The translations under genes and the position numbers were made by a program. Below the pieces are notes generated by a model. It had not been told where the DNA came from. It was given only the letters and a program-made list of their open reading frames with translations, and did no database searches. Shown here piece after piece: positions 47,727 to 61,377 of a stretch of DNA of 64,000 bases. The DNA comes from Cryobacterium aureum. GTDB taxonomy: Bacteria > Actinomycetota > Actinomycetes > Actinomycetales > Microbacteriaceae. Location of the stretch: NCBI RefSeq assembly GCF_002954245.1, contig NZ_PPTG01000048.1, positions 496,001 through 560,000 of the forward strand. Reading direction: 5' to 3'. Each line of letters starts with the position of its first letter. Positions within the stretch are counted from its first letter, which is position 1.

Positions 47727-48214
47727 ATGGGACGTGCCGTGGCGGCGTCCGACCTCGTTGCCGGGCGTGAATGTGGTGAAGGAACCTTGACCTTCAGGGA
47801 ACAGTATTCCTCTGCTCCGGCCCAGGGAAGCCTCCACGACAGGTGGATGGTCCCGTTCGAAAACGCCGACCCGCCCGACGACGACCTATAAGGGGCAACG
47901 GAATTTCGGCGGGTTGTGGTGGTGCGCGACAAACGAACGTCACGTTGGTTTTGAATCCTGGTGCGAACGCGACCAACTGATGTGCTTGGACTTCGATCCT
48001 CGGGTCACCGGCATCTCCTCCCAACCGTTTCGGATGCAAATGCCGGCGTCACTCCCCCAAAGTTCGCATGTCCCGGATTTCTTCGTCCGCCACGCGGACG
48101 GGAGCGCCATCGTTGTCGACGTGCGGCCAGAATCCCGAGTGTTCGAGGCCGACCAACTCGTTTTCGCGTACGTCCCGCCGGCACAACCGACGGCTTCGGG
48201 CGTAACATCGCACC
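47727..48214 (+). pseudogene. TnsA-like transposase endonuclease, frameshifted
   Basis: Two overlapping frames together give a TnsA-like protein of Tn7-type elements. The ATG at 47727 opens a 54-codon frame starting MGRAVAASDLVAG and containing RWMVPFENADPP, which stops at TAA 47889. The +1 frame continues at once with YKGQRNFGGLWW, HVGFESWCERDQLMCLDFDP, SSQPF, HVPDFFVRHADGS and VVDVRP, the nuclease core with its ESW Glu and PDF Asp. Homology fades near 48168. The frameshift and missing C-terminus indicate a dead copy, unless a programmed shift operates. No tnsB, tnsC or tniQ follows. Confidence 0.72.
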
Positions 48215-48784
48215 ATGGTCATAAGGCAGGTTGCGTTCGTCAACGGTCGAGCTCTGGCTTCCGCCCTCTGGGTTATGTCCGCATTGGGTCACAAGACGAG
48301 TTCTCTTGGAACGCTTCAACTGGCTCCGAACCAGCCGATCAGAAGCGCGTCCGACAGGGCTTTGTTGGAGGCGTGTTCCTGGGCTGCCGAGTACGGCATG
48401 GCGTTTCCAGGAGATGTTGAACGCATTCGTGCAACCGCTCCCGGTGTCGCAGAGCGACACTTCTTGGCTGAGGTGCTTGCACAGCTCGAGCCACGTCTCG
48501 ACGGTTGGTTGAAGGAAGTTTGGCCGGAAAATGTAGCGGTCGAACCTGCCGCGAACGAGCATCTGCATTGGATGCTTCGACACGGAGTTCGCGGTCGCGC
48601 CTCCTCCGAAACATACCTCATCCTGCCGACAGTTGAACCCATCGGCCGCAGAGTCGAGGACTCCGCCTGGGTGGTCTCGCGGTCACTACTGAATGATCGA
48701 GACGCGTTCCGCCGCTGGTTGAGAGGTCGCGCGAAGTTGCCGATTGCGTCCTTAGACACTTTATTCGTCGACGCCGGTGCGTAA
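48215..48784 (+). CDS. hypothetical protein downstream of tnsA remnant
   Basis: A 189-residue protein with no recognised family. It is mostly helical by composition, with an ERIRATAPGVAERHFLAEVL helix and a Trp-rich LDGWLKEVWPENV segment, and has no membrane span or signal peptide. TAACAT (48203-48208) lies 6 nt before ATG 48215, a leaderless promoter like those of clear genes here, which supports expression. It sits within the decayed transposon island and may be cargo. Confidence 0.6.
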   Translation: MVIRQVAFVNGRALASALWVMSALGHKTSSLGTLQLAPNQPIRSASDRALLEACSWAAEYGMAFPGDVERIRATAPGVAERHFLAEVLAQLEPRLDGWLKEVWPENVAVEPAANEHLHWMLRHGVRGRASSETYLILPTVEPIGRRVEDSAWVVSRSLLNDRDAFRRWLRGRAKLPIASLDTLFVDAGA

Positions 48785-48907
48785 GTAAACAGCTGACTGG
48801 CGAACGGAAGACAGCATTACGGGCTCATCGCATTCGAGAGTCGTCGCCGAAGGGGCCCTGCGGTCGCGGTGTGCTCATGAATGCTGCCTCCGTTCGGCGG
48901 TGATCGG

Positions 48908-49279
48908 TTAGAACCGGAGGTCCGGGCCGGTCCGGCTGAACCGTCTCGTGGGACAGTACGCGAACGTGCGGTCGCCGGAGAAGCCAACCGTGGAGTCCAA
49001 GAGGTCCGTCACATCTTGCGCGTCGATGACCAGGCTCGAGATGCCCTCTTGGATCAGAAGATGGCATCCGGCGCTTGCAGCGCTCGTTACCGGGCCGGGA
49101 ACGGCGCCGACGGGCCGGCCCAGGGAGTGGGCTTGCCCGGCGACGTTGAGCGAGCCGGAGCGATGCCCGGCTTCGACGACGACGGTTGCGCCGAACCGGG
49201 CGACCAGTGTTCCGGTGACGATGTCGCCGGGCTCGGAGAGTGCCGCGAGCGTCATCCTCGCGTCGCGCTCGTCGTCCAT
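48908..49279 (-). pseudogene. dprA: dprA with large internal deletion
   Basis: The 123-codon frame joins two distant parts of DprA. Residues 1-28 (DERDARMTLAALSEPGDIV) match the extreme N-terminus. From about residue 31 it continues with TVVVEAGHRSGSLNVAGQA, GRPVGAVPGPVTSAASAGCH and VIDAQDVTDLL, which belong near the C-terminal end of the Rossmann domain. About 200 residues are missing in frame. The tail after the last motif is unlike a normal DprA winged helix. DprA loads RecA on incoming DNA during transformation; this copy cannot. Confidence 0.75.
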
Positions 49280-49360
49280 GGTCTCGGTCAGGGCAGTGCC
49301 TCCTCGATCTGAATACGAGCTACACCCAGGGGCCCGAGCCTCGGCGCATTCGTCTCCCTC

Positions 49361-49513
49361 ATGGTGGTTCCCACTACGGACAAACCTCGCACCAGGCCCG
49401 TGGGAACAGCGTTGCGTTCCGCTGCGTCCGGCGTATTTTCGAACGCGTTACCGAGCAAAGACGACCTGGCCGAGATCTTCAACCTCGCCCAGCGGGCCCC
49501 GAAGAAAAGTTAG
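49361..49513 (+). CDS. possible 50-residue small ORF
   Basis: The ATG at 49361 opens a 50-codon frame with a plausible composition: a basic N-terminus (TDKPRTRPVG), then a helix (KDDLAEIFNLAQRAPKK). A ribosome binding site is weak. No family is recognised. It may be the remnant of a longer gene. The region from here to 49741 otherwise holds only short repeats. Confidence 0.25.
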   Translation: MVVPTTDKPRTRPVGTALRSAASGVFSNALPSKDDLAEIFNLAQRAPKKS

Positions 49514-49741
49514 GTCATACATGTGGCTTTTGCCGCGAAATGGCGGTGTTCTTTCATTTCAGAATGGCGGTTCTGCTGCGCCTTAAAGGAAAGTGTGCCA
49601 GCCTGTGATCGCATGAGCGGCCACATACCGCAAAGGTATCGGTTACTTCGGGCCCAGAATCGTGACGATGTCGCATAACCGAAGTAGGCCTTCACCTTTT
49701 TGTGGACGCGAACCGGTTTGTGCGTACGAACGGAGGGAACC
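49514..49741. other. non-coding stretch with inverted and direct repeats
   Basis: AATGGCGGT occurs twice, near 49545 and 49562, each followed by TTCT. TACTTCGG (49644-49651) and CCGAAGTA (49679-49686) form a perfect 8-bp inverted repeat with a 27-nt loop. No gene is seen. This could be the scar of an excised or decayed mobile element. Confidence 0.35.
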
Positions 49742-50545
49742 GTGCAACTCATAACCGGTGCGGCCGAGGCCGACTGGATTGATATTGCGCTTGAGTTTTC
49801 TGCTCGCGTCATAGGCACCGTCCCAGGCGGCTACGAAGCCTACCTGCGAATTTTTCACCCTGGTGTGGCGATAACGGTCATTTCCATGGAAGGAACAGGC
49901 TTCACCGCAGTGAGCTGGGGCGCCGTTGCTCAAGCTACCGGCGCCACCGTGCACCCCGCTATGCAGTGGACCTCGATCATCGGTAACACCGAAGGCGTCA
50001 TGCAGCTACCTGACGGGCGTATCGTGCGTCCTCCCGAAGACCGGCTACTCAGCGTCAGTGAATTTGCAGCAGTTACACGGCCCCTGTCAGCAAGCACCAC
50101 CAGTGGGAGCATCACGGCCGCTTATTGGGCTGGATGGGAGCCACTAGCCACTGGAAGCACGGCGCTCGGGCCGGAAACCGCAACGCTCATCCGCGACGGC
50201 CATACCGCGGTCATACAAGGCGAAAGATACCTGCTTGCTCGCTTCCCGAGATCCGAACTCGTGACGGCTGCGCAAGTGGGCGTGATCGAGTGGGGAAAAG
50301 GTGCTTCTCTGACTCCGAACATGTTATGGCCTGACGACCGCGCATGGTTCATGGCCAACCATCATGACTTCAACTTCACAGTTATCGGAGGCACGACCGA
50401 ACTCGCCAAGACAATTCAAGAAAATCGCGAACTTGAAGCAATGCTAATTGCTCCTGATGCCGATCTGAGTCTGCACGGTGATCATGTGAACCCATCACCG
50501 TTGCCTCCGCATGCAGGCACCATTGGTAATCACTCCGACGTTTAA
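49742..50545 (+). CDS. conserved actinobacterial hypothetical protein
   Basis: A 267-residue protein of an uncharacterised actinobacterial family. Its pattern is recognisable: a GGYEAYLRIFHP motif, then AVSWGAVAQATGATVHPAMQW, a YWAGWEPL strand and a late WPDDRAWFMANHHDFNFTVIGG segment. No catalytic motif, membrane span or signal is evident. GTG 49742 with GGAGGG just upstream is chosen over an upstream TTG/ATG frame. It seems intact, unlike its neighbours. Confidence 0.7.
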   Translation: MQLITGAAEADWIDIALEFSARVIGTVPGGYEAYLRIFHPGVAITVISMEGTGFTAVSWGAVAQATGATVHPAMQWTSIIGNTEGVMQLPDGRIVRPPEDRLLSVSEFAAVTRPLSASTTSGSITAAYWAGWEPLATGSTALGPETATLIRDGHTAVIQGERYLLARFPRSELVTAAQVGVIEWGKGASLTPNMLWPDDRAWFMANHHDFNFTVIGGTTELAKTIQENRELEAMLIAPDADLSLHGDHVNPSPLPPHAGTIGNHSDV

Positions 50546-50570
50546 AGACAAACTCAACGGCCATGGTGCG

Positions 50571-50590
50571 AGGAACCCCCATATGAAACA
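50571..50590 (+). repeat. boundary motif copy h (degenerate)
   Basis: AGGAACCCCCATATGAAACA resembles the GGGGAACCC-N4-CGGGACG motif with three to four changes and one extra C. It lies exactly where the homology of the kinase remnant begins. Confidence 0.4.
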
Positions 50591-50888
50591 CTGTTTGGCT
50601 GCCGGGCAGCATGTGATCCTGGACGGAATCTTCAATGCAGGCCGGTACTAGCCTATGCTCGCACGCGTTCGATCCATGACTAACGATGCCCGCTTCTACG
50701 CTTTCGACCTCAGTCTTGAGGACACGATCAAACGCCACCGATCTCGTTCCAAGACCGTCGATTTCACAGTCAAGGACATGGCCGCCTGGTACCACGGATG
50801 GCAACCGCTCAGTTTTGTTCGGGAGCGCCGAATTGGAAGGTCCGAAACGGTCAGTGCCATCGTCACCCGAGTCCTCGAAGACCGGTAG
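50583..50888 (+). pseudogene. truncated P-loop kinase with in-frame stop
   Basis: In one frame, MKHCLAAGQHVILDGIFNAG is followed by RY, a TAG stop at 50649-50651, then PMLARVRSMTNDARFYAF, RHRSRSKTVDFTVKDM and a C-terminal helix ending EDR. This matches the C-terminal two thirds of small zeta-toxin/AAA-type kinases, which read HVILEGI and later FDETIRRH-like segments. The P-loop half is absent. Both truncation and nonsense mutation mark it as dead. It begins at a boundary-motif copy. Confidence 0.65.
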
Positions 50889-50992
50889 TAGACGATTCCA
50901 CCATCCGTCCGGCAGACGGCCGATAGCCGGACGTCGAAAGCCACAGGTGTGGGGCCAAACTACCTGGCGCCCGAGTTCGCCGACGTTGTGTC

Positions 50993-51015
50993 GCAGGGGA
51001 ACCCTTTACGGGACG
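50993..51015 (+). repeat. boundary motif copy a
   Basis: GCAGGGGAACCCTTTACGGGACG. It lies in a 251-bp gap (50889-51139) that otherwise holds nothing recognised, between the kinase remnant and a small membrane-protein gene. Confidence 0.6.
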
Positions 51016-51139
51016 AGCGGAGCGGGAGCGTGGGTTCAACCAGGAACGAGCAGCCGCCGGCGCTGCGGTATCGAGGACAGGTTAGAGAGACTGACGTTCT
51101 ACCTCGCGCACCGATCGCAGAGCTGGCTAGCCTGTGGCC

Positions 51140-51349
51140 ATGACCAGAAGACTGAACCCCGCCGCAGCAGCAAGGGTGTTCCTGACGATCGGCATCGTCG
51201 GCATTTTCCTTGTAGTTGCCGACGTGCTGCTCATTTTTTTCGACCCGAGCCGACTCGCCCCGTACTTTACTGCGGTCTGCGGTATCTGCCTCATCGTTGC
51301 GGGATTCGTCGGCCACCGGGCAGTTCGGAACACGGGCTCGGCAGGATAG
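51140..51349 (+). CDS. small two-span membrane protein
   Basis: A 69-residue protein with two membrane spans (about 13-33 and 41-61) and short basic ends. TAGCCT (51128-51133) lies 6 nt before ATG 51140, a leaderless start. The upstream GTG at 51134 would lie within the spacer. No family is recognised. Confidence 0.6.
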   Translation: MTRRLNPAAAARVFLTIGIVGIFLVVADVLLIFFDPSRLAPYFTAVCGICLIVAGFVGHRAVRNTGSAG

Positions 51350-51454
51350 GACGGCCTCTGGTTTCCTAGCAGGTCTGGCCGGAGGACGTCCGACTGCTTC
51401 CGCCCACGACAGACTCACCGTGGCCAAATGGGGAACGTCCCACGGGATCGCGTG

Positions 51455-51757
51455 CTACTGGCCAATTCGGGTGGATTTGTTGTGAATCGCGATGACTACC
51501 AACGGGGGCACGTACACCGAACAGATCAAGAGAATGGCGCCCGCTCCCCAGACGATGAGTAAGAAGGCTGCTCCAATTCCGACGAGGAGCGTCGCCGCTA
51601 TTTGCACAAGGACGCTGGCCCGCGGGCGTCGGTATCGTGGGTCGGTTTTCCACAGCGGGATTTGTCGCCCACCTGCGGCTCGCGCCTCGAGAATCCCCGA
51701 ACGCGTCGATAAAGCAAGACCCGCACCGACAAAAAGAACGCCAATAACGAAAGTCAC
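51455..51757 (-). CDS. hypothetical membrane protein
   Basis: A 100-residue protein with membrane spans near the N-terminus (TFVIGVLFVGAGLAL) and near the C-terminus (two spans, AATLLVGIGAAFLLIVW and ILLICSVYVPPLVVIAI), linked by a basic loop (WKTDPRYRRPRAS). GTG 51757 is chosen; a TTG at 51841 extends the frame with an atypical 28-residue leader. The start is uncertain. No family is recognised. Confidence 0.5.
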   Translation of the reverse strand: MTFVIGVLFVGAGLALSTRSGILEARAAGGRQIPLWKTDPRYRRPRASVLVQIAATLLVGIGAAFLLIVWGAGAILLICSVYVPPLVVIAIHNKSTRIGQ

Positions 51758-51916
51758 CGTAACGTCCAATCGAAGCCCAGTCGGTAGTGCTTGCGTTCCC
51801 CAGACTGTACTCCGACGAACTGCCCAGGGACCGCCTCGCAAATGGACGCTGCAATCGGGCCATAGTCGTTGACCGGGACATAAGAACGGTCAATCGAGGC
51901 TCGTGTTCTGTTTCGG

Positions 51917-51937
51917 TAGAGGAACCCTCTGCGGGTT
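51917..51937 (+). repeat. boundary motif copy b (partial)
   Basis: AGAGGAACCCTCTGCGGGTTC. It shares the AACCC-N4-CGGG core and lies between the membrane protein and the GNAT gene. Confidence 0.45.
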
Positions 51938-51999
51938 CAGTATTGATGCGCACGCCAACCGGAACGCAATAGGTTTTCCCGGTGCCATAGTGTCGGACC

Positions 52000-52605
52000 A
52001 TGGATCTCTTGGAATCGCCCACGCTCTCAGGACTGCTCGTCACTCTTGAGCCTCTTTCATTCGATCACCTAGCCGAGCTGTGTGAAGCTGCGAACGAGGG
52101 CGAACTCTGGCGAACGTGGTACACATCCATACCGAGCCCGGAAGGGATGGCTGCGGAGGTTGAACGCCGACTCAGCCTGCACGAGCGGGGAAAGATGCTC
52201 CCTTGGGCCACTCGGCTTGCGTCAACGGGGCGAATCGTTGGCATGACGACCTTTATGAATCCGAGCGCTGATGCCCCGCGATTGGAAATCGGCTCTACTT
52301 GGCTGGCTGGAAGCGCTCAAGGTACGGGTGCGAACCGAGAGGCCAAGCTTCTCCAACTGACTTACGCCTTCGACGATTTGAAGTGCATTGCCGTAGAGTT
52401 TCGCACTCACTGGCACAACCGCCAATCACGAAAGGCAATAGCCGCTTTAGGCGCCAAGGAAGATGGAGTACTGCGCAGTCACTCGGTTGGACCGGACGGT
52501 GCTCTCCGCGACACAGTCGTGTTCTCGATTACTGCTAGTGAATGGCCAGCCGTGCGCGTGGGACTTCGGCATTCTTTGGCCACGAGGAAGTTGTCCCTCC
52601 AGTAA
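52000..52605 (+). CDS. GNAT family N-acetyltransferase (RimJ/RimL-like)
   Basis: A 201-residue acetyltransferase. VTLEPLSFDHL begins the fold, GRIVGMTTFMN gives the central strands, and LEIGSTWLAGSAQGTGANREAK contains the acetyl-CoA pyrophosphate loop (GTGANRE). A late VEFRTHWHNRQSRKAIAALGA matches the C-terminal fold of the RimJ/L branch. TAGTGT (51988-51993) lies 6 nt before the ATG (leaderless). The substrate (ribosomal N-terminus, antibiotic or metabolite) is unknown. Confidence 0.87.
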   Translation: MDLLESPTLSGLLVTLEPLSFDHLAELCEAANEGELWRTWYTSIPSPEGMAAEVERRLSLHERGKMLPWATRLASTGRIVGMTTFMNPSADAPRLEIGSTWLAGSAQGTGANREAKLLQLTYAFDDLKCIAVEFRTHWHNRQSRKAIAALGAKEDGVLRSHSVGPDGALRDTVVFSITASEWPAVRVGLRHSLATRKLSLQ

Positions 52606-52657
52606 TTGCGTCACATCGCCAGCTCAGCCGCTCGATTTCGCAAGGACCTCACTCCGA

Positions 52658-52683
52658 ATGACGAACCCTCTGCGGGACGACCG
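52658..52683 (+). repeat. boundary motif copy c
   Basis: ATGACGAACCCTCTGCGGGACGACC. It lies 12 bp beyond the 3' end of the first membrane-protein paralog and 52 bp after the GNAT gene. Confidence 0.55.
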
Positions 52684-52695
52684 CGGCATGATTCA

Positions 52696-53091
52696 TCAGG
52701 GCAGAGTGTTCCACGTCTGTCGAGTGGCGAGCCGGGCGGTCAAGAAGAGTGTGACGCCTAGGAGTCCAAGGATGCCGGCACAGGTAATTCCCCAGTCCCA
52801 CACGCTCGCTTGGGTGTGCACTAGAAGGAGTTCGTGTTTGCTCGTGTAATAGGAGCATTGGACGGCGATGGGGAAAAACGAAAAGACACCGTCTGCGGTC
52901 CAGCTGGCCGCGGGCAGAGCCAAATTACCAAGGTGAGGATTCTGATAACACGATTCGCCGATGCCCGCGTGAGAAATAGACGCGAACTGAAGCTCGGCCA
53001 GGGTTATGAGGGTGACAGAAGGAATGCCAAGTATCCAAGACCGCGCAGATACAGCAAGGGCTACAGGGAAAGCGGGTCTGTGCAGTTGCAT
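52696..53091 (-). CDS. membrane protein, paralog 1
   Basis: A 131-residue protein with an N-terminal span (about 10-40), an extracytoplasmic loop with two cysteines (GESCYQ, VQCSYY) that could form a disulfide, and a C-terminal span (about 100-120). It is about 75 % identical (98 of 131 positions) to the protein at 59258-59653. ATG 53091 with AAGGGAG upstream is preferred to ATG 53226. No family is recognised. It lies between two boundary-motif copies. Confidence 0.7.
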   Translation of the reverse strand: MQLHRPAFPVALAVSARSWILGIPSVTLITLAELQFASISHAGIGESCYQNPHLGNLALPAASWTADGVFSFFPIAVQCSYYTSKHELLLVHTQASVWDWGITCAGILGLLGVTLFLTARLATRQTWNTLP

Positions 53092-53187
53092 ATCGTGTGC
53101 TCCCTTATGAACAGGGTATTCGCTGACAGACACGAAGGAATGCACTTGTGACCGGGCGCGAGAAACCGATGCCCGACAGAGTCGGGC

Positions 53188-53207
53188 AAACCCTAGAAAC
53201 GGCGACC
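53188..53207 (+). repeat. boundary motif copy f' (degenerate)
   Basis: AAACCCTAGAAACGGCGACC, 97 bp upstream of the paralog 1 start, corresponds in position to copy f upstream of paralog 2. A GACAGAGTC sequence precedes it at both loci. The rest of 53092-53296 holds no gene. Confidence 0.4.
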
Positions 53208-53296
53208 GCCACATCCGAACGGTCAAATGACAACTCTGGCTTCATTCCGCGTAGGGAACGATCAACGAGTCATGAGCTCTTTCCCGGGTGGCTCGC

Positions 53297-53686
53297 TCAG
53301 CGCGCCCTGAACGCGTCCGATGTTGGGGGTTGAATTGACTGCTCGGGCCAGATTGCACGGAGGATACGGATGGTGTCGTCCAGCCCGATGCCGGCCTGGG
53401 TGCTGGTTGCCGCGAGTTGCCGGGCGACGTCCAACACTGGCCGCGGTATTGTCGTGGCGCTCCGGCTCACACGGGTGCCTCCACCGGTACGGGCCGTGAG
53501 GTAGCCCTCAGTTTCGAGCGCCTTGTATGCCTTTGCTACGGTGCCGGGGGCGACGCCGAGGTCCTTCGCGAGCTGACGGACCGAGGGAAGGCGCTCGTCG
53601 GCTGCGAGTCGACCCGACGCGATGAGCCCGCGGATTTGATCGCGGATCTGCTCCGTGGGCGGGGCAGATCCTGACAGGGTGATCAT
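53297..53686 (-). CDS. GntR-family transcriptional regulator (YtrA type)
   Basis: A 129-residue regulator. The winged helix-turn-helix occupies residues about 12-75 (PPTEQIRDQIRGLIASG, LPSVRQLAKDLGVAPGTVAKAY). The C-terminal part is a short helical dimerisation region, as in YtrA-type members, not a full FadR or HutC ligand domain. ATG 53686 overlaps the upstream membrane-protein stop (ATGA). The frame is open upstream, but that belongs to the neighbouring gene. It probably represses its own operon through the 54619 palindrome. Confidence 0.88.
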   Translation of the reverse strand: MITLSGSAPPTEQIRDQIRGLIASGRLAADERLPSVRQLAKDLGVAPGTVAKAYKALETEGYLTARTGGGTRVSRSATTIPRPVLDVARQLAATSTQAGIGLDDTIRILRAIWPEQSIQPPTSDAFRAR

Positions 53687-54600
53687 CGGGTTGTGACCGT
53701 GGCCGGTGCCCACCGCCGCGCCGGAATCGCTGAGAGGACGACAGCGACGCACAGCGCTAACCCGATCACCGCGGCAACAGCGGATGCGCCAGCGAACACT
53801 GGCTGTAGCCCAGCAAACGTGGTCCAGAACGTCACACTTCCCTTCGAGGTCGGGAACGAGGATGTAATCGATACGGTGCTGGCGAGTGAGCTGAGTATGA
53901 ACCCGAGGTGCATGAGTAGGGCACTGGTTCCGATCGCAAGAACGTTTCCCGTGCGGAAAGTTCGAATGTGAACGTCGTGCTCGCGGTTGGCGGCCGGTGT
54001 GGGTCGAGCGATGAGCATCAGGACCACGATGGTGACAATGATCAGGACGCCGATCAGAATCAGCGACGGAATGGAGTTGTACCACCCGTAGATACTCGAG
54101 CCCATTTCACGTCCGCCCCCAAGGTCCACAAGGTACATCGTGTATTGGCCAGTGCTGGGGTCCGGCTGGGAGGCGGCACCGGCCGTCACGGTAACGCTGA
54201 AGATGAGCGCCAGAAGCAGGGCAGGGGCGACGAACCACCAGCCTCGCGCAAAAGTCAGCGGCGTCCGTGGTGTGAGATCCGCAACGCCCCGCCCGCTTCG
54301 ACCGTAAACCGGGAAAGCGAGAAGAACCATCCCGACGATCCCGAGCAGAAGTGGGCTCGTGAATCGGTAGTTGTGATACCAGACAAAGTATTCAGGTGGC
54401 AGATGTAGCGGAAACAGCCCGGTACCGAGCAGCAGCAAGGCAACGGCGCCGCCGCCAAGAAGCAAGCCCGCCGCCACAGTGAACGCTCCCACACCGCCGC
54501 CGGCGAGCTGCCTCTTACGCCCCCAAATCAGCCACCACACCAGGGCGAGAAGGATGCCCGCGAACACCGGACCCAGTACCACGAAGTAAAACCAAGTCAT
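53683..54600 (-). CDS. polytopic membrane protein in GntR operon
   Basis: A 305-residue protein with about seven to eight membrane spans (for example FVVLGPVFAGILLALVWWLI at the start). An extracytoplasmic loop contains YTMYLVDLGGGREMGSS. No ATPase is encoded nearby, unlike classical YtrA operons. The family is not recognised with certainty; a transporter or envelope-stress protein is possible. ATG 54600 with GAGGGGTG upstream is chosen over the frame start at 54705. Confidence 0.75.
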   Translation of the reverse strand: MTWFYFVVLGPVFAGILLALVWWLIWGRKRQLAGGGVGAFTVAAGLLLGGGAVALLLLGTGLFPLHLPPEYFVWYHNYRFTSPLLLGIVGMVLLAFPVYGRSGRGVADLTPRTPLTFARGWWFVAPALLLALIFSVTVTAGAASQPDPSTGQYTMYLVDLGGGREMGSSIYGWYNSIPSLILIGVLIIVTIVVLMLIARPTPAANREHDVHIRTFRTGNVLAIGTSALLMHLGFILSSLASTVSITSSFPTSKGSVTFWTTFAGLQPVFAGASAVAAVIGLALCVAVVLSAIPARRWAPATVTTR

Positions 54601-54618
54601 CTCGACACCCCTCACCTC

Positions 54619-54638
54619 TGTATTACCTGAACAATACA
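54619..54638. promoter_or_regulatory. candidate GntR (YtrA-type) operator
   Basis: TGTATT-N8-AATACA is a perfect 6-bp palindrome 19-38 nt upstream of the membrane-protein start. A related half-site, TGTATC, follows at 54643. Its position suits repression of the two-gene operon by the GntR protein. Confidence 0.6.
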
Positions 54639-55027
54639 CTTCTGTATCATCTGATTGCCACAAGTTGCAGGTGAGGCCGGGCTCAATGCGAATGCGCCAT
54701 GTCATTCACACAGCGTGGGCCACGCGTACATCGCTCGCCGTCCTCCGGAGGGCGGGCCCCGACGCAAGCGCCCACGCAATGCTGACGCATCTAGTCATCG
54801 CCTGAACCAGGCAAGAACACATTCTCAACGCGGATGCGTCGCGGCACTCCGCTTACGACGCGCCTGAACTGACGTGCTTCCGAGGTAGCTTGCTGCTGGA
54901 CCTCTTCGAGGCGGCACCTTCAAGGAGGGTTCGGTGGAGTTCTCGACTTGCTGGGATCGGCCCAAACCTGCCCGCAGGGAACGTCTTGCGGTACTGGGTT
55001 TGGAACGGCGTGGGCGAAGTTGCCCGT
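54639..55027. other. 389-bp intergenic stretch without recognised gene
   Basis: Contains the distal promoter of the GntR operon (about 54640-54660) and a CCTCCGGAGG palindrome near 54741. No convincing gene or RNA is seen between it and the GNAT stop. The reading frames present lack ribosome binding sites and recognisable similarity. Confidence 0.4.
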
Positions 55028-55552
55028 TTAATGGGAATCGGTGAGCAGCTGATACATGAGATGGTCCTGCCACCGGCCCGCAATTTTCAGGTATTTGGGT
55101 GCAGTTCCGTAGCGCACGAAGCCCACGCGTTCGAGGACTCGTTGGGAGCGCGCGTTGGGGATCAGCGTCTCGGCCTGGATTCTGTGCAGACTCAATTCTT
55201 TGAATGCCAGTGCGGTCATCGCTCGAACTGCGTTGGTGGCATAGCCACGTCCGTTGCTCTCTTGAGCGACCCAGTAGCCCATGTTGCAGGACTGAAAGGC
55301 TCCGTAGGTGATCCCACTGAACGTGATTCGACCTACAACCTGCGAATCCTCGTCGAGAATCACGTGTGGCACGGCCTCGCCTCGGCCGTGCCGAGCGAGC
55401 GCGTTTTCAACTTCCGCCTGCTGACCTGCCACCGTGAAGTAGGGGTCCGCGCGGATTGGGTCCCATGGAGCTAAGAAAAGCCGACTGGATAGCTGAAGGT
55501 CGGCGAGGCGCTCCACATCGTTGACGGATATGAGTCGAGTAGTAGCAGGCAT
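55028..55552 (-). CDS. GNAT family N-acetyltransferase (RimJ-like)
   Basis: A 174-residue acetyltransferase. FLAPWDPIRADPYFT near the N-terminus, VVGRITFSGITYGAFQS, the acetyl-CoA loop QESNGRGYATNAVRAM and a C-terminal LHRIQAETLIPNARSQRVLE are classical RimJ/SpeG-type motifs. ATG 55552 is preferred to 55609. It could acetylate a protein N-terminus or an antibiotic. It is divergent from the PadR-ABC module. Confidence 0.9.
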   Translation of the reverse strand: MPATTRLISVNDVERLADLQLSSRLFLAPWDPIRADPYFTVAGQQAEVENALARHGRGEAVPHVILDEDSQVVGRITFSGITYGAFQSCNMGYWVAQESNGRGYATNAVRAMTALAFKELSLHRIQAETLIPNARSQRVLERVGFVRYGTAPKYLKIAGRWQDHLMYQLLTDSH

Positions 55553-55591
55553 TAGAGAATGCTGCCACACGCGACTCAAATCACCCGCGCC

Positions 55592-55620
55592 CGCAAAGGG
55601 GAACCCCATACGGGACGGTC
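55592..55620 (+). repeat. boundary motif copy d
   Basis: GGGGAACCCCATACGGGACG embedded in a Cys/Gly-free non-coding stretch between the GNAT gene and the PadR operator. A perfect match to the consensus. Confidence 0.6.
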
Positions 55621-55654
55621 ACGTTTCGGGGTGACTACGACCACGACGGTGCGT

Positions 55655-55687
55655 CTATACACCTCAAGTATACGTGTGGTGTATAGT
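55655..55687 (+). promoter_or_regulatory. PadR operator overlapping a leaderless promoter
   Basis: CTATACACC (55655-55663) and GGTGTATAG (55678-55686) form a perfect 9-bp inverted repeat with a 14-nt spacer. The second arm overlaps TATAGT (55682-55687), a -10 element 7 nt before the padR ATG. Binding by the PadR protein would block transcription directly. Confidence 0.8.
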
Positions 55688-55694
55688 CGTGTTT

Positions 55695-56222
55695 ATGGAC
55701 AACACGCAGACTCTTTTGGGCCTGCTCGGTACCGGACCGAGCTACGGCTATGACTTGAAGCACGGTTACGACCGGTTCTTCGGTGCGGAGAAACCGCTGG
55801 CCTTCGGGCAGGTCTACGCGACTCTCGCGCGTCTTCTACGTGACGGCCTGATCGATCTGCTCGGTGAGCAACCGGGAGGGGGACCCGACCGGAAGCGATA
55901 TGAGATCACCGAGCTTGGACGGGCGCGGGTTGCTACGTGGATGTTCACCCCTGACGCTCCCGAGCCGTTACTGCAGAGAAACCTGTTCGCCAAAACAGTC
56001 ATCGCGTTGTTGCTGGGTGATGACGCGGGACGCCTGTTGGACGGGCAGCGCGCAGAGCACATGAAACGACTTCGGGAACTGACAGCGGCAAAACGCGGTG
56101 CCGATCTCATCAAGGTTCTGGTGTGCGACCATGCCATGTTCCACATCGAGGCTGACTTGCGATGGATCGACCTCACAAGCGCTCGCCTGACCGAGTTGCG
56201 GGCGCAGGTGGCCGGCGCATGA
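55695..56222 (+). CDS. PadR-family transcriptional regulator
   Basis: A 175-residue repressor. The PadR winged helix occupies residues about 4-75 (LLGLLGTGPSYGYDL, FGQVYATLARLLRDGLID, DRKRYEITELGRA), followed by a C-terminal helical dimerisation region (Vir-C type). These proteins often sense the compounds exported by the adjacent transporter. Its 3' end overlaps the ABC ATPase start (ATGA). It likely autoregulates the three-gene operon. Confidence 0.92.
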   Translation: MDNTQTLLGLLGTGPSYGYDLKHGYDRFFGAEKPLAFGQVYATLARLLRDGLIDLLGEQPGGGPDRKRYEITELGRARVATWMFTPDAPEPLLQRNLFAKTVIALLLGDDAGRLLDGQRAEHMKRLRELTAAKRGADLIKVLVCDHAMFHIEADLRWIDLTSARLTELRAQVAGA

Positions 56223-56932
56223 GAATGCAGCTGCACGAACCTGCCGGACCGCTGTTATCGGGCCGGGACCTTCGAGTCGCGTTCGGCGGCACCGAAGCGC
56301 TGCGGGGCGTAAATATCGATATTCATGCCGGTGAGATCGTTGCGGTAATGGGGCCATCGGGATCCGGAAAGTCGACACTGCTGCACGTCCTGGCTGGGGT
56401 GTTGAAGCCTGATACCGGCTCCGTCACCTACAACAAGGTCGAAATCACAGCGCTCAATGAAGCCGCACGTTCTGCGTTACGGCTGAGCGACTTCGGATTC
56501 GTGTTTCAGTTCGGTCAGCTGCTTCCGGATTTGACCGCGATCGATAACGTCACCATCCCCCTTATGCTCTCGGGGGTGAAACGGCGTGACGCGCTGCGGC
56601 AGGCTGCGACCTGGCTGGACCGTCTGGGCTTGAACGGACACGGCGACAAGCTCCCCGGCGAGCTCTCCGGCGGCCAGGCACAGAGAGTCGCGATCGCCCG
56701 TGCCCTGGTCACGGCACCCCAAGTGGTTTTCGCCGATGAGCCGACGGGGTCCTTGGACTCGCTGGCTGCGGAGAACGTGATGGTCACCCTGACCGAGCTG
56801 GCGCGGGCGACTGGGACCACCGTAGTGATCATCACCCACGACCCCCGAACCGCGTCGTATGCGGATCGGGAGGTCATTGTCCGGGATGGCCGCATCACGG
56901 CCGGACAGAGCGCGGAAGCGCTCCGGCTATGA
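56219..56932 (+). CDS. ABC transporter ATP-binding protein (MacB/LolD-like)
   Basis: A 237-residue ATPase. GPSGSGKST is Walker A, LSGGQAQRVAIARAL the signature, VFADEPTGSLD Walker B, and ITHDPRTA the His switch. This type works with FtsX-like permeases in peptide or drug efflux. It overlaps both neighbours by 4 nt, so all three genes are coupled. Confidence 0.93.
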   Translation: MRMQLHEPAGPLLSGRDLRVAFGGTEALRGVNIDIHAGEIVAVMGPSGSGKSTLLHVLAGVLKPDTGSVTYNKVEITALNEAARSALRLSDFGFVFQFGQLLPDLTAIDNVTIPLMLSGVKRRDALRQAATWLDRLGLNGHGDKLPGELSGGQAQRVAIARALVTAPQVVFADEPTGSLDSLAAENVMVTLTELARATGTTVVIITHDPRTASYADREVIVRDGRITAGQSAEALRL

Positions 56933-59103
56933 GCTTCCAACTCACCAGACTGCTGACCGTGAACAACGGGGACGCGAAAAAGCGCCTCCTGGGGATCTCG
57001 GCCGGAGTCGCTGTCGGAGTCACACTCCTGCTGCTGATTTGGGGCGCGTACAACGGAATACACCAGCGAGAACTCCGCTCCGCGTGGACACAACTCGGCG
57101 GCCCCTCTGCAGTGCAGCTGACCGACCAAACGAGCCCGTCGGCGTCAGGTCAGGTCCTTGCCACCATGTCGGGAGATTATTACCAGGGTCAGTCCATCAC
57201 GCTCGTCACAGTCGCCGCAGAACCTGGCTCAACTGTTCGCATTCCTGGAATGGACCACTTCCCCGAGCCCGGACAATACTTTGCCTCGCCGGCGCTCATC
57301 GACCTCATCACTGCGGTTCCCTCCAACGAGCTGGGCGACCGGTACGGCACTCCCGAGGGCGAGATCCCGGAGACCGCATTGGCGAGCCCGGACTCCCTCG
57401 TTGTCATCGTCGGGCAAACCCCCGAACGCCTCGCTACGGAGACCAACGTCACCGTTGTGACTGCATTCACCGGAGCGCTGTTCGGTGGAAACTGGGCTTA
57501 CTTGACCCTCGCGATCATCGGCGCAATCGCGATCCTCATCCCCGTGCTGCTCCTGGTGAGCATTGTGACCGCGCTCGGGGCAACGCAACGACGAGAACGG
57601 TTCGCCACTCTTCGCCTCATTGGCGCAGCTCCCGCCGCCGTGGCGCGCATCGCGGCGACCGAGACTGCGGTGACCAGTCTCTTCGGCGCTATAGCCGGGG
57701 TGATACTCGCGATTCTGCTAGCGCCCCTGGCCGCGCTGGTCCCGATCGACGGCCTAACCTTCTTCGTTACCGACATTCTTGTCGACCCGATCAGTGCCAC
57801 CGTCATCATTGCCATCACGATCGCCGGGAGCACCCTCGTGGCGTGGCACCGGGCACGACGAGCAGGCTTCGGCCCCCTCGGTGCTTCACGCCAAGAGCAT
57901 GAGCGGACACCGCGACTCGTGTCGGTCCTACCGCTTATCGTCGGGCTCAGCGCGTTGATTGCTTCAGCACTCGCACCCCGCGTCGCCTTCATCATCCCGA
58001 ACTCTCAACTCGTCATCATCGCCGGATTCGTGCTCACCACGATCGGGTTACTGATCGCCGGCCCCTACCTCACCTTCCTGACCAGCCGGATAGCCACGCG
58101 CCACGCGCGCACCGCAGCGGGTGTGATCGCGTTCAATCGCATCCGGCTCCTACCCCGCACCACTTTCCGATCCGTCAGCGGCCTCGTTCTCGCCCTCTTC
58201 CTCGTCTCGGTCTTCGCGACCGCGGTGACAGCTGTAGAAGAAGCGACCGCTCTCGCCGACGATGACGCACATCTGTCCATGTCAACGCTCATCAATCGTC
58301 CGCTCACCGACCCCACCGACAAACAGATCTCGGCACTCGCGGCCGCCCCCGGCGTGGAACACGTCGGGCTCGCTTCCTTCACGTTGCAACAGTATGACGG
58401 GCCGTATCTCAGTCGGTCCGACGCCCTGCACCTCGGCATACTTACCGCCGCAGAAGCTGCGACCATCACCACCGACTACGTCGGCATAACGCCCGGCTTC
58501 GAGAACAACGAACCTCTGAACGTCACGGCAGCGCCCGACATCTTGCAATCAGAACTAGCCAATCCGATCCTTCTAATCGCCACAGACGGCACCGCGGCAG
58601 GTCTAGAGCGAGCCCGCACGGCAGCCGTCAACAGCGAAATAGCGTCCTACAACGTGCCGAGCACACGCGCAGAGCTGCAAACCAACTACACGGCGACCCT
58701 GGCGAACAGCTTCGCCGGCCTCGCCAATATCGGAATCGTCATCATCACGCTCATCTCCGTGATCTCCCTCGCCGTAGCCACGATCGCGGGTATCCTCGCC
58801 CGCCGCCGTGTGTTCGGTCTACTTCGACTGATGGGAATGCCGAGCAGGACCCTTCGTCGCGTCATCGCCAGCGAAACCGCGCTCCCTCTGGCGACCGTGT
58901 TTGCTGCATGCATCGGCTTTGGTGTCGTCGTCGCCTGGGCACTCGTAACCGGGCTCTCCCCAGGGGTGCGCACCATCGATTGGCCCGGTCCCTCCTACTA
59001 CATCGTCATCGCGTTCAGCCTGATCCTCGCCACGCTCTCCGTCCTCACAACATTCGCCAGCGCCACAAAGAACACAGACATCACAAGCACCCGATACGAA
59101 TAG
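56929..59103 (+). CDS. FtsX-like ABC transporter permease
   Basis: A 724-residue permease with two FtsX domains. A single N-terminal span (about 22-42) precedes a large extracytoplasmic domain (about 45-185), then three spans; a second extracytoplasmic region (about 430-600) precedes the last three spans. This is the duplicated form used in bacitracin- or lantibiotic-type exporters. It partners the upstream ATPase. ATG 56929 overlaps the ATPase stop. A boundary-motif copy follows at 59217. Confidence 0.9.
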   Translation: MSFQLTRLLTVNNGDAKKRLLGISAGVAVGVTLLLLIWGAYNGIHQRELRSAWTQLGGPSAVQLTDQTSPSASGQVLATMSGDYYQGQSITLVTVAAEPGSTVRIPGMDHFPEPGQYFASPALIDLITAVPSNELGDRYGTPEGEIPETALASPDSLVVIVGQTPERLATETNVTVVTAFTGALFGGNWAYLTLAIIGAIAILIPVLLLVSIVTALGATQRRERFATLRLIGAAPAAVARIAATETAVTSLFGAIAGVILAILLAPLAALVPIDGLTFFVTDILVDPISATVIIAITIAGSTLVAWHRARRAGFGPLGASRQEHERTPRLVSVLPLIVGLSALIASALAPRVAFIIPNSQLVIIAGFVLTTIGLLIAGPYLTFLTSRIATRHARTAAGVIAFNRIRLLPRTTFRSVSGLVLALFLVSVFATAVTAVEEATALADDDAHLSMSTLINRPLTDPTDKQISALAAAPGVEHVGLASFTLQQYDGPYLSRSDALHLGILTAAEAATITTDYVGITPGFENNEPLNVTAAPDILQSELANPILLIATDGTAAGLERARTAAVNSEIASYNVPSTRAELQTNYTATLANSFAGLANIGIVIITLISVISLAVATIAGILARRRVFGLLRLMGMPSRTLRRVIASETALPLATVFAACIGFGVVVAWALVTGLSPGVRTIDWPGPSYYIVIAFSLILATLSVLTTFASATKNTDITSTRYE

Positions 59104-59216
59104 TTGGCCCCGCTACGAATATCGCGCAGCTCGATCAAACGCGCGGTAATCAGCGGTTCGAAGTCACCGCATCTGCGCCAAGATTCGACACTCCTAGCCA
59201 GGACGTGGCCGCGCTC

Positions 59217-59243
59217 CGCAAGGGGAACCCCCGACGGGACGGT
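59217..59243 (+). repeat. boundary motif copy e
   Basis: GCAAGGGGAACCCCCGACGG, continuing GACGGTC, is a full match. It lies 14 bp beyond the 3' end of membrane-protein paralog 2. The gap 59104-59257 holds nothing else. Confidence 0.6.
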
Positions 59244-59257
59244 CTGGGTCTAATTCT

Positions 59258-59653
59258 TCAGAGAGATTCGTGCCAGGACCGTCGAGTTGCGAGTCGAGCC
59301 GTCAGAAAGAGAGCAAAGCCCAGGACTCCGAGGATCGCGGCGAATGTGATTCCCCAGTCCCACACGCTGCTCTGGGTATGTACTAGGAGGAGTTCATGAT
59401 CGCTCGTGAAATAGGAGCATTGGACCCCAATGGGGAAGAACGAAAATGCGCCGTCAGTAGTCCAGCCTGGTGGGGGCAGAGCCAGATTACCTAGCTCGGG
59501 GATCTGATAGCAAGATTCTCCGAGACCCGCATGGGACATGATCGCGAACTGAAGCCCAGCCACGGCGATGAGGGCCAGCGACGGAATGCCGAGGATCCAG
59601 GACCGCGCAGTCACGGCGAGGAGCACGGGAAAGGCCGGTCTTTGCAGTTGCAT
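59258..59653 (-). CDS. membrane protein, paralog 2
   Basis: A 131-residue protein with the same topology and two cysteines (GESCYQ, VQCSYF) as the protein at 52696-53091, about 75 % identical to it. ATG 59653 has a strong AAGGAGGGGG upstream and is preferred to the open frame at 59695. No family is recognised. It lies between the two PadR-ABC modules and between boundary motifs e and f. Confidence 0.72.
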   Translation of the reverse strand: MQLQRPAFPVLLAVTARSWILGIPSLALIAVAGLQFAIMSHAGLGESCYQIPELGNLALPPPGWTTDGAFSFFPIGVQCSYFTSDHELLLVHTQSSVWDWGITFAAILGVLGFALFLTARLATRRSWHESL

Positions 59654-59986
59654 TTCGTGTACCCCCTCCTTGACAAAGTACGTGCTGCCAGACACGGGGG
59701 TAAGCGTTTGAAGAAATCACTAGCCTGACAGAGTCAGTGCCCGTAGCCGAACCCTCAACGGGAAGGCCCACCGCTAGCGACTGGCGCGTGCGGTGCGGAA
59801 ACGAGGATCTCCCGTACATCGATCGTGGCTAATGCATTGCCACCGTCGAGAACACGGTCTAGAACGTGTCTCTTCCCGCGTGTCGTGGCCGATTTGGTGC
59901 ATTCTCGGTATATCAATACTATGTAACTAGATACGTGGTTTGCATTACTCTTCCGCGACCGCAACACGCAACTTCAGGGAGCACCT
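59654..59986 (+). promoter_or_regulatory. intergenic region with padR2 promoter and AT-rich patch
   Basis: No gene is seen in these 333 bp. The part near 59908-59945 is AT-rich (TATCAATACTATGTAACTAGATA) and bounded by a weak TATC/GATA dyad; it may hold the promoter and operator of the second padR. A ribosome binding site, AGGGAG, precedes ATG 59987. The left part carries the promoter of paralog 2 and boundary motif f. Confidence 0.4.
59747..59767 (+). repeat. boundary motif copy f
   Basis: GCCGAACCCTCAACGGGAAGG, about 94 bp upstream of paralog 2, with GACAGAGTC nearby (59727-59735). It is the counterpart of copy f' upstream of paralog 1. Confidence 0.5.
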
Positions 59987-60616
59987 ATGTCCGTTCGTCA
60001 AAGCCTTCTCGCAATCCTCAATCAGGGACCGTGCTACGGCTACCAGCTGCGAACGGAGTTCGACCGCCGGACCGGGTCGATCTGGCCGCTGAATGTTGGC
60101 CAGATCTACAACACTCTCGACCGACTCGAGCGCGATGGCCTCGTCGCTAAGGGCGACACCGACGATCACGGCCACGTTTATTACCAGATCACGGATGCCG
60201 GTCACACCGAAGTCACGAGCTGGCTCAGCTCTCCCGTGGTGCGCTCAGCTGCCGCGCGTGACGAGCTCGCGATCAAGCTGGCCATCGCGGTCACCCTGCC
60301 CGGTGTAGACATCTCCGAAGTGATCCAGGTGCAGCGCCGTGGGAGCCTGCGCACACTGCAGGATCTGACGAAGACCAAGAACGCGAGCGGCGAGCCGGAG
60401 TCCGCCGGAGACCTCGCCTGGCAGCTCGTCGTCGACTCGCTCATCTTCGCCGCAGAAGCCGAGGTGCGCTGGCTGGACCATTCGGAGGCCAGGCTGGCAC
60501 GGGCATCCGCCGCCGGTCTGATGGCGCCGATGCAGCTCAAGCTGGAACCGCCGAAACGCGGCCGACCGGTCAGGGCGGCTGCGGATAACGACGCACAGGT
60601 CGCTGGTTCGCGATGA
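59987..60616 (+). CDS. PadR-family transcriptional regulator (second)
   Basis: A 209-residue repressor with the PadR winged helix (LLAILNQGPCYGYQLR, VGQIYNTLDRLERDGLV, HVYYQITDAGH) and a longer C-terminal dimerisation region ending in a basic Pro/Arg/Ala tail (EPPKRGRPVRAA). It is only distantly similar to the first PadR. Its stop overlaps the ABC ATPase ATG at 60613. Confidence 0.92.
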   Translation: MSVRQSLLAILNQGPCYGYQLRTEFDRRTGSIWPLNVGQIYNTLDRLERDGLVAKGDTDDHGHVYYQITDAGHTEVTSWLSSPVVRSAAARDELAIKLAIAVTLPGVDISEVIQVQRRGSLRTLQDLTKTKNASGEPESAGDLAWQLVVDSLIFAAEAEVRWLDHSEARLARASAAGLMAPMQLKLEPPKRGRPVRAAADNDAQVAGSR

Positions 60617-61377
60617 GCACGCACCTCGCCGCTGGTTCGACGCGCCCCACAATGCCCGATGAACTTCTGCGCCTCGACGGGGTCGCCATGCACTACGGCA
60701 AGGGCGAGACCTCCGTCATGGCCCTTTCCGGCATTGACCTCACGGTATCCCGCGGCGAGCTCGTCGCAATCATGGGTGCGTCTGGTTCGGGCAAATCGAC
60801 CCTGCTGACAATCGCCGGTGGGCTGACCCAGCCGACTAGCGGTGAAGTCGTCATCGAGGGCCAATGGCTCTCCGACCTGCCCTCCGCGCAAATTGCCGTC
60901 CTGCGTCGCCGAACGCTTGGCTTCGTGTTCCAGGACTTCAATCTGATCCCGACGCTCACCGCCCTGGAAAACGTCACCCTGCCGCTCGAACTGGACGGAT
61001 GGCCTCGCCGGAAGACGCGCACGGCCGGCCTCGACGCACTCGCGGCGGTCGGGCTGAAGGACCGCGCGCAGCGTTTCCCCGATGACCTGTCCGGTGGCCA
61101 GCAGCAGCGGGTCGCGATCGCCCGCGCCATCGTCGGCACCAGACGCCTGATCCTCGCCGACGAACCCACCGGCGCCCTCGACTCCGCTACCGGGGAGGGC
61201 GTCCTGCGGATGCTGCGCGACCGGGTGGATGCCGGTGCCGGCGGCATTCTGGTCACCCACGACGCACGCCACGCGGCCTGGGCCGATCGCATTGTGTTCC
61301 TCCGAGATGGCCGGATCGTGGACGAGCACGTACGCGATCATCCCGAATCACTACTCGCCGGACGGCGCACAACATGA
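60613..61377 (+). CDS. ABC transporter ATP-binding protein (second)
   Basis: A 254-residue MacB/LolD-type ATPase. GASGSGKST is Walker A, LSGGQQQRVAIARAI the signature, LILADEPTGALD Walker B, and THDARHA the switch. It overlaps the padR and permease genes by 4 nt each, so the operon is fully coupled. Same architecture as the module at 55695-59103, but diverged. Confidence 0.93.
   Translation: MSTHLAAGSTRPTMPDELLRLDGVAMHYGKGETSVMALSGIDLTVSRGELVAIMGASGSGKSTLLTIAGGLTQPTSGEVVIEGQWLSDLPSAQIAVLRRRTLGFVFQDFNLIPTLTALENVTLPLELDGWPRRKTRTAGLDALAAVGLKDRAQRFPDDLSGGQQQRVAIARAIVGTRRLILADEPTGALDSATGEGVLRMLRDRVDAGAGGILVTHDARHAAWADRIVFLRDGRIVDEHVRDHPESLLAGRRTT

Follow-up and report, generated by a model that had tools for sequence, protein, structure and literature searches.

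A 28-bp motif that stands between accessory genes of Cryobacterium aureum very probably serves as the recombination site for a hitherto undescribed system of gene cassettes. Its swappable genes are lined up in long rows as in integrons, and the cassettes are apparently moved by a resolvase-type enzyme that they carry themselves and that is other than the integron's. The motif, GTCCCGYAAGSSGAACCCYNTRCGGGAC, is an imperfect palindrome and extends far past the window, i.e. the whole stretch of 64,000 nt that was analysed.

Site motif, copy number and orientation

Six strong copies in one orientation had been described in an earlier note on the window, and all were present within a few bases of the places named there, scoring 18.0–26.5 bits (E = 4e-7 to 2e-4, filters off) with model R1, which, like a position weight matrix also used, was trained on sites of the same genome including these six, so that window and own-genome scores are partly circular. 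The absence of such a run from the core at 1–47 kb was likewise borne out: the next-best place in the window scored 8.1 bits (R1, at 46208), and the matrix reached at most 7.2 in that core vs 9.6 in a shuffled copy. A plain pattern with up to three mismatches recovered the copies in part; its six window matches comprised five of the six, missed that at 51917 and included one in the core at 31938. Shuffled windows gave a mean of 2.16 matches and 2 of 100 reached six, so the window taken alone is no more than suggestive. The motif was settled as real because the genome contains 18 exact copies of GAACCCNNNNCGGGACG and none of the reversed pattern, and these copies are clustered, each cluster having a single strand orientation.

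The C. aureum genome gave 73 R1 matches at E ≤ 10 (150 of 1522 candidates scored), 70 of which fall in about ten runs (tallied from tables), nearly always with a single orientation per run. Arrays of the same kind were found in the comparison genomes, which appear to be Cryobacterium as well and are referred to as congeners. Twenty congener loci outside the R1 training set, representing 16 array regions from 11 congeners, contained, over 329 kb, 130 matches with E of at most 1, and 129 of them lay on the majority strand of their own locus (tallied from tables). A pattern scan of the congeners matched only 4 of the 10 drawn and is therefore insensitive.

Sites of at least 16 bits numbered 277, in 35 of 40 regions (own regions among them). 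The majority orientation was shared by 269, and the remaining 8 came from two regions that each contain a pair of opposed arrays. The motif had been placed at gene boundaries by the earlier note, for which equal frequency within genes would have spoken against a cassette process; genes predicted with a simple purpose-made gene caller contained only 3 of the 277 sites, vs 58.8% of random array positions. Genes ran with the site strand in 212 cases and against it in 231. Gene-less units were present, some sites were near-perfect inverted repeats, and some centres were variants (GGAC, GATC).

The window array and its carrier

The array in the window lies within a Tn7-like transposon. Repeated end sites and a 5-bp target duplication, which are among the marks of such a carrier, were found, with GGTAC at 47528–47532 repeated after the right end.

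47533..64000, no strand: Tn7-like transposon bearing the window array; left end at 47533, right end past the window at C43:573162; end repeats
47914..48420, +: TnsA-like endonuclease remnant; NCBIfam NF033179, 113 bits (cut-off 110), profile positions 30–116 of 212

The probable recombination sites (28-bp cores) are as follows.

50987..51014, +: first strong site of the array; central AA 51000–51001; R1 20.6 bits at 50995
51910..51937, +: site; central AA 51923–51924; R1 18.0 bits at 51912
52651..52678, +: site; central AA 52664–52665; R1 23.3 bits at 52653
53176..53203, +: decayed site, end of paralog-1 cassette; no model score; aligned by eye with the intact paralog-2 site
54967..54994, +: decayed or weak site, start of second GNAT cassette; no model score; missed by the earlier note
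55589..55616, +: site; central AA 55602–55603; R1 21.6 bits at 55595
59213..59240, +: site; central AA 59226–59227; R1 26.5 bits at 59214
59737..59764, +: site; central AA 59750–59751; R1 20.3 bits at 59740

Three weaker forms had also been proposed. No R1 match was obtained at 48849, and that at 50571 scored 5.0 bits (E = 3.5); because neither was confirmed, the earlier statement that the kinase remnant begins at a copy does not hold. The form at 53188 received no score, and by eye it reads as a decayed copy in the same place as the intact 59740 site of the paralog cassette. The sites at 59214 and 59740 fit the AACCC-core spacings reported earlier for the two paralogs (525 and 524 nt).

These sites divide the row into the following cassettes.

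51002..51922, no strand: cassette 1, between two sites; ORFs 51134–51349 (+) and 51455–51841 (−)
51925..52663, +: cassette 2, GNAT acetyltransferase (52000–52605); Acetyltransf_3, 64.8 bits
52666..53188, −: cassette 3, membrane-protein paralog 1 (ORF); shares a 300-nt DNA repeat (73%) with cassette 6
53191..54979, −: cassette 4, GntR regulator and membrane protein; GntR, 62.2 bits
54982..55601, −: cassette 4b, GNAT acetyltransferase; Acetyltransf_3, 76.9 bits
55604..59225, +: cassette 5, PadR-like regulator, ABC ATPase and permease; ATPase families and ORFs, PadR and permease labels from the earlier note
59228..59749, −: cassette 6, membrane-protein paralog 2; G028_C26 matches 539 nt at 91%
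59752..64000, +: cassette 7, second PadR-like/ABC/permease set; continues to a site at C43:560376, just past the window

The functional units listed earlier need amendment at the GntR operon plus GNAT, which is probably two cassettes (4 and 4b). The ORFs of cassette 1 are small and by eye membrane-like; that at 51455–51841 (−) had no Pfam match.

Exchange of units and position of the presumed crossover

Site-to-site units recur across species beside unrelated neighbours. Inside arrays, 37.7% of 653 alignment ends lay within 20 bp of a site centre, vs 3.4% at random. A C. aureum unit at C43:560389–562463 is shared with G033 (97.6%) and G034 (96.4%), and window positions 59215–59753 with G028 (91%). 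The latter match, to cassette 6, has its edges at both window sites, and in G028 a scored site is present only at the first edge. An 86% match to cassette 2 in congener region G010_C11 stops at the site, and G028_C26 matches 1413 nt of cassette 4 at 83%. The unit of cassette 4b occurs in G037_C34 at 96%, flanked by two sites of that region; the match starts at the GAAC centre of 54967..54994, and the left halves differ. Unit edges thus fall at the motif as had been predicted, in comparisons between species rather than strains of one species.

The intergenic bias and these edges favour the cassette-recombination reading over the other explanation offered earlier, an intergenic repeat family carried along by duplication. 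A repeat between genes, or a sequence resembling a terminator, that duplication and homologous recombination had spread would suit the near-perfect inverted repeats and the nearly exclusive intergenic position, but would leave unexplained that unit edges lie inside the site with unrelated sequence beyond it, and that orientation is uniform regardless of gene strand. A length of 28 bp is also short for homologous exchange, and we regard this explanation as very unlikely.

The crossover was mapped on a 32-nt window around the site. With homologous left flanks (121 pairs) excess identity ran through offset 15, and with homologous right flanks (70 pairs) it began at offset 14; the map was unchanged when one pair per family was used (44 left and 46 right families). 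The palindrome centre is AA at offsets 14–15. The comparisons confine the presumed exchange to the central AA plus or minus one base (offsets 14–16), as for serine recombinases, which would fit a 2-bp overlap; offsets 13–16 are nearly invariant in all sites, so that the map narrows exchange to 14–16 and stops short of proving 2 bp. Offset 14 differed in 3 of 191 junction pairs. The variable centres count against strict 2-bp identity, which would bar recombination between some pairs. Empty and occupied junctions were few (4 qualifying among 27 gap pairs, 2 with sites at both edges).

A spacing of 70 nt was seen in 12 of the 21 site pairs lying within 150 nt of each other. An attC-like compound site, with such pairs as two attC ends, was considered and rejected: these are 70-bp mini-units whose left and right neighbours differ and which showed no excess folding. 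They belong to a few sequence families. One is 97–100% identical across two C. aureum and two congener loci and has two looser members besides, another is identical in two loci, and four more are at 64–77%.

A serine recombinase packaged beside the sites

The gene for a small serine recombinase is itself packaged as a cassette. The predicted protein has a Resolvase catalytic domain (PF00239, 144 bits, cut-off 23.3) and HTH_7 (PF02796, 29.1 bits, cut-off 23.8), which places it in the resolvase/invertase class, and its nearest solved chains are a DNA invertase, which we take to be Gin, and gamma-delta resolvase. A site on the gene's strand at −54/−55, −129 to −143 or +49 to +62, ranges picked after inspection of the data, was found at 20 of 27 congener loci, on both sides in 3; the other 7 had no site in these ranges, and two of the 27 had downstream sites on the opposite strand.

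Among the matches listed, which reach E of about 7e-24 so that short fragments may escape, full or partial copies (at least 60% identity) occurred in 28 of 57 genomes, all 28 of which have sites. At least five sites were present in 17 of these 28 vs 4 of the 29 without a listed copy (p = 3e-4), a comparison of genomes that are not independent and in which the co-occurrence is partly built in because the recombinase cassette brings its own sites. None of 15 site-free congeners had the recombinase among the matches listed, site-free meaning no match at E ≤ 0.01 among up to 126 scored candidates per genome under stricter filters.

An upstream motif scan covered all 80 loci; another examination covered 63 of the 80, and 22 upstream stretches were inspected by eye. 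In distant relatives (39 loci, 71–82% identity) the motif lay 105–140 nt upstream in 20 (at least 8 bits), vs 1.1% of random windows, and in 13 of 32 after removal of 7 Cryobacterium loci. Of the 41 closest loci only 8 reached 8 bits for a site near −54 upstream. Near −50 the distant relatives share another conserved block, which by eye resembles a res accessory site; it was not seen at most array sites. Classical resolvases require accessory sites. In Curtobacterium a hairpin and a GGATC/GGAGC centre lie beside the recombinase, and no array was established there. The recombinase-bearing contig C15 of C. aureum was considered as a possible circle, which was rejected since its ends do not overlap.

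Tests of integron and tyrosine-recombinase identity

Directly repeated sites between exchangeable gene cassettes, the arrangement of an integron, were found. Remnants of integrons, i.e. attC arrays without integrase (CALIN), would look similar, with co-oriented sites between accessory genes, gene-less units and no integrase in cis. The C. aureum genome had no TIGR02249 (IntI) match over the cut-off of 265 bits, the best reaching 82.3. Against single-base shuffles, 202 sites showed no excess of attC-type hairpin folding over far controls (mean z of −0.27 upstream and −0.38 downstream vs −0.17 and −0.36). The unit edge also lies mid-way in one short site and genes point both ways, and we regard CALIN as very unlikely.

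It is also conceivable, though unlikely, that the cassette arrays are real and are served in trans by another enzyme, either XerC/XerD or a tyrosine recombinase that escaped recognition, the serine recombinase being only a frequent passenger. The site-rich genomes G013 (11 sites), G028 (21) and G053 (19) had no serine recombinase among the matches listed. In G053 a broken tyrosine recombinase, split over two frames, begins some 10 nt or less from a site, in the same strand orientation. The length of 28 bp would suit an 11-6-11 Xer-type layout too, a reading of the site that was abandoned on the crossover map: exchange at offsets 14–16 is narrower than the 6–8 bp of tyrosine recombinases, and the 6-bp central exchange and both orientations that mark Xer/pdif sites were not found (exchange below 6 bp; 269 of 277 in the majority orientation). 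The motif upstream of the serine recombinase's distant relatives also argues against such an enzyme. Tyrosine recombinases gave 17 matches in C. aureum and 85 in ten congeners, and no site adjoined the 47 loci considered (17 of 17 and 30 of 85). In 41 loci scanned for them, the deliberately included C13, C14 and C42 loci were joined only by a degenerate one of phage type, at C43:131 kb; 16 further regions gave the split G053 enzyme that starts at a site, and matches in G037_C34 and G033_C38, 3.1 and 17 kb from a site, respectively. Putative XerC/XerD (best PF00589 matches) are present in site-free genomes too.

Proposed mechanism and known systems

We therefore favour, as likely, integron-like arrays that encode their own operating enzyme, a member of the resolvase family whose activity as a recombinase is presumed from sequence. 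The motif would be a crossover site, like res site I, of the small serine recombinase, and a mobile cassette in the directly repeated rows of accessory genes would reach from one site centre to the next. Double-strand cuts by the enzyme at the central AA would leave two sites with a 2-nt overlap, and strand exchange would then either release a unit in circular form or integrate such a circle elsewhere, an insertion for which the simple 28-bp site would suffice. Encoded by one cassette, the enzyme would act in trans on all arrays in the cell; rows would be extended and remodelled as single units or runs of units are gained and lost, and units would pass between species. We lean, with less assurance, towards the wider reading that this is a second, independently evolved kind of integron, whose recombinase, itself a cassette, descends from an ordinary resolvase of the res type in Actinomycetes and underwent amplification in Cryobacterium, spreading genes there from species to species.

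Like integrons, these arrays have rows of exchangeable accessory-gene units, co-oriented sites, gene-less units and arrays without the enzyme in cis. Integrons differ in their tyrosine recombinase and folded attC, whereas here a probable serine recombinase and a plain 28-bp site are found, with exchange within 1–3 bp, genes on both strands, and the enzyme gene inside a cassette with no fixed platform found. The res and gix sites of resolvases and invertases are 28 bp with a central dinucleotide, like the array site. The Tn3-type enzymes (gamma-delta, Gin, Hin) share the protein architecture, and in the distant relatives the site precedes the gene in a res-like manner; known members resolve cointegrates or invert a segment, whereas the sites here number dozens and form the borders of mobile gene units. 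In SCC elements of staphylococci the Ccr serine recombinase is similarly encoded within the mobile unit, but these have large recombinases and one chromosomal site, and are not known to form arrays of many small units. The pdif modules of Acinetobacter (XerCD) also carry genes between short Xer-type sites without a transposase of their own; orientation here is uniform, and the site sequence and probable enzyme class are other.

No serine-recombinase cassette array was recognised in titles and abstract beginnings of the open-access PMC literature, nothing was found there pairing Cryobacterium with a serine recombinase, and PMC5704250 offered nothing relevant. Capture of gene cassettes is known from integrons, which have a tyrosine integrase and folded sites and are nearly absent from Actinobacteria according to PMC9024848. 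If the preferred reading is true, cassette capture evolved more than once, here with a serine recombinase and plain double-stranded sites; the phylum would have its own route for sharing small genes, much Cryobacterium accessory DNA would be explained, and a compact recombinase/site pair with directly testable rules would be available.

The row in the window rides in the Tn7-like transposon, and integrons have also been reported on such transposons (PMC8649781). In one congener another array is located on a small replicon of 79 kb.

The site and its copies in the genome

The earlier note had reported copies of GGGGAACCC-N4-CGGGACG separating accessory genes at 48.8–59.8 kb of the window. With up to 3 mismatches allowed, the window held 6 matches, 5 of them in that run, against 2.16 expected; taken alone, this count was suggestive only. 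Across the whole genome of C. aureum (4.31 Mb, 52 contigs) the motif was borne out: GAACCCNNNNCGGGACG occurred in 18 exact copies and the reversed pattern in none, and the copies were clustered, on a single strand per cluster. Comparison of their flanks extended the motif to GTCCCGYAAGSSGAACCCYNTRCGGGAC, with arms GTCCCGTA and TACGGGAC around an asymmetric centre, GAAC, making a site of 28 bp with AA at its middle.

A sequence-only site model, R1, was built from 48 sites of this genome. At E ≤ 10, with 150 of 1522 candidates scored, it gave 73 matches in the genome, 70 of them within runs on contigs C15, C25, C36, C37, C43 (two places), C47, C49 (two places) and C52. Six sites in the window, all used in building R1, scored 18–26.5 bits, and the next best place scored 8.1 bits. 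The window spans C43:496001–560000, and its array runs on past the window end. Elsewhere on C43, at 135–151 kb (L026), two arrays face each other.

Arrays in congeners and beyond

At E ≤ 0.01, 42 of 57 genomes of the genus had at least one R1 match and 15 had 10 or more. Twenty congener loci (16 regions, 11 genomes) contained 130 matches in 329 kb, and all but one shared the prevailing strand of their locus. Sites of 16 bits or more were counted in 35 of 40 regions (n = 277): 269 had the majority orientation, and the remaining 8 came from two regions, each with a pair of opposed arrays. The location between genes was upheld here, as predicted genes held 3 of the 277 sites versus 58.8% of random positions. 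The median unit in the same 35 regions was 1448 bp; 43 of 235 units had no predicted gene, and 212 genes lay with the site strand and 231 against it.

The motif was rare outside the genus, being found in 3 of 388 genomes of the rest of the family (one doubtful; stricter, insensitive pattern search) and 2 of 294 genomes of the order (this genus excluded). One of the three family genomes, G132, had five sites scoring at least 16 bits, all in one row. Two congener arrangements were also seen: in G013 (C24, 90–106 kb, L092) two arrays are divergent, and in G025, an assembly of two contigs, an array with a single site orientation (C2, 39.2–47.3 kb, L140 and L141) lies on a contig of 79 kb that may be a plasmid.

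Exchange of units at the site centre

When 26 regions were compared all against all, 37.7% of the alignment ends inside arrays (n = 653) were no more than 20 bp from a site centre, versus 3.4% of random positions. Other species carried copies of units, at up to 98% identity, with unrelated neighbours. Window units 59215–59753 and 51948–52666 had counterparts in G028 (91%) and G010 (86%), and the GNAT unit at 54978–55617 had one of 96% in G037, where it is also one unit of an array. In four of 27 gap pairs the closed junction had a single site and the extra stretch at least two; two of these pairs had sites at both edges, the third had one site about 100 bp off the alignment edge, and in the fourth edges and sites disagreed. 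Several remaining gap pairs resembled insertion sequences of about 1.45 kb; C49:5.7–7.2 kb and similar pairs had 3–7-bp overlaps at the ends. Gene-free units of 70 bp occurred at C25:12.9 kb, C36:149.6 kb and congener loci, and one of 68 bp at C47:4.3 kb; one family of the 70-bp units was 97–100% identical over species and contexts.

To map the crossover, site pairs sharing one flank only were compared for excess identity by offset in a 32-nt window. For the 121 pairs homologous on the left and unrelated on the right, excess identity extended to offset 15 and was almost gone at 17; for the 70 pairs homologous on the right, it started at offset 14. Restricting the sets to a single pair from each family (44 left, 46 right) gave the same map. 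The exchange is thus confined to offsets 14–16, and not more narrowly because offsets 15–16 are nearly invariant; the central AA occupies offsets 14–15. In resolvases and invertases the overlap is 2 bp, centred in a 28-bp palindrome, and in tyrosine recombinases it is 6–8 bp.

A serine recombinase as candidate enzyme

Clustering of array proteins brought up a small serine recombinase with Resolvase and HTH_7 domains, resembling solved DNA invertases and gamma-delta resolvase. The C. aureum copy is as follows.

C15:2911–3486, serine recombinase, between sites at C15 2841 and 3533

A site on the gene's strand was found at -54/-55, -129 to -143, or +49 to +62 in 20 of 27 congener recombinase loci. 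Among the matches listed, 28 of 57 genomes had the gene, complete or in part, at 60% identity or more; none of these 28 was among the 15 genomes without R1 matches. Five or more sites occurred in 17 of the 28 genomes with a copy versus 4 of the 29 others among the matches listed (p = 3e-4), a co-occurrence partly built in because the recombinase gene brings its own sites. Separate support for the link comes from the sequences of distant relatives (71–82% identity), in which the motif lay 105–140 nt upstream in 20 of 39 loci versus 1.1% of random windows. Without Cryobacterium loci, 13 of 32 had it (Arthrobacter, Paeniglutamicibacter, Pseudonocardia, Solirubrobacterales and one Actinomycetes MAG). 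By eye, a second conserved block near -50 in the distant relatives resembled a res accessory site. In Curtobacterium (L249, L250, L253, L254, L256) a hairpin closes the recombinase unit; the site after it has GGATC or GGAGC at its centre and may be a co-evolved variant.

We read the motif as site I for this resolvase family, now serving as the edge of mobile gene units; the recombinase itself would ride as one unit. We infer activity of the recombinase, a circle form, and sufficiency of the simple site.

A tyrosine recombinase could instead move the units. Integrons are described in one report as extremely rare in Actinobacteria (PMC9024848). A search of the C. aureum genome gave no integron integrase over the model cut-off. 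Its tyrosine recombinases were XerC-, XerD-, transposon-type-group- and phage-type-integrase-like (labels by eye), and no sites were near tyrosine recombinases at 47 loci examined. The array loci searched, besides those included on purpose, held only a degenerate one. Against the serine recombinase, G013 (11 matches), G028 (21) and G053 (19) are site-rich yet had no copy among the matches listed, and in G053 (C13, 261.0–262.4 kb, L144) a tyrosine recombinase whose gene is broken into two frames begins at a site, on the same strand. This gene could be a further passenger, or could point to a different enzyme. The degenerate recombinase of the array loci, a phage-type integrase at C43:131 kb (L102:14967–15772), lies a few kb ahead of an array, and tyrosine recombinases in transposon-like clusters of two or three occur on C13, C14 and C42 (391.8–393.9 kb).

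The carrier of the array

The array of the window lies in a larger element, with the following features.

Window 47528 to C43:573167, Tn7-like element, 29.6 kb, carrying the cassette array
Window 47914, TnsA-like remnant, inside the element
Window 48908–49279, DprA-like remnant, inside the element

Its end repeats are at 47538–47707 and, as an inverted copy, near C43:573.1 kb; the ends read TGTCC...GGACA, with GGTAC flanking both sides. Carriage of the array by this element resembles that of integrons, which one report also describes as cargo of Tn7-like elements (PMC8649781).
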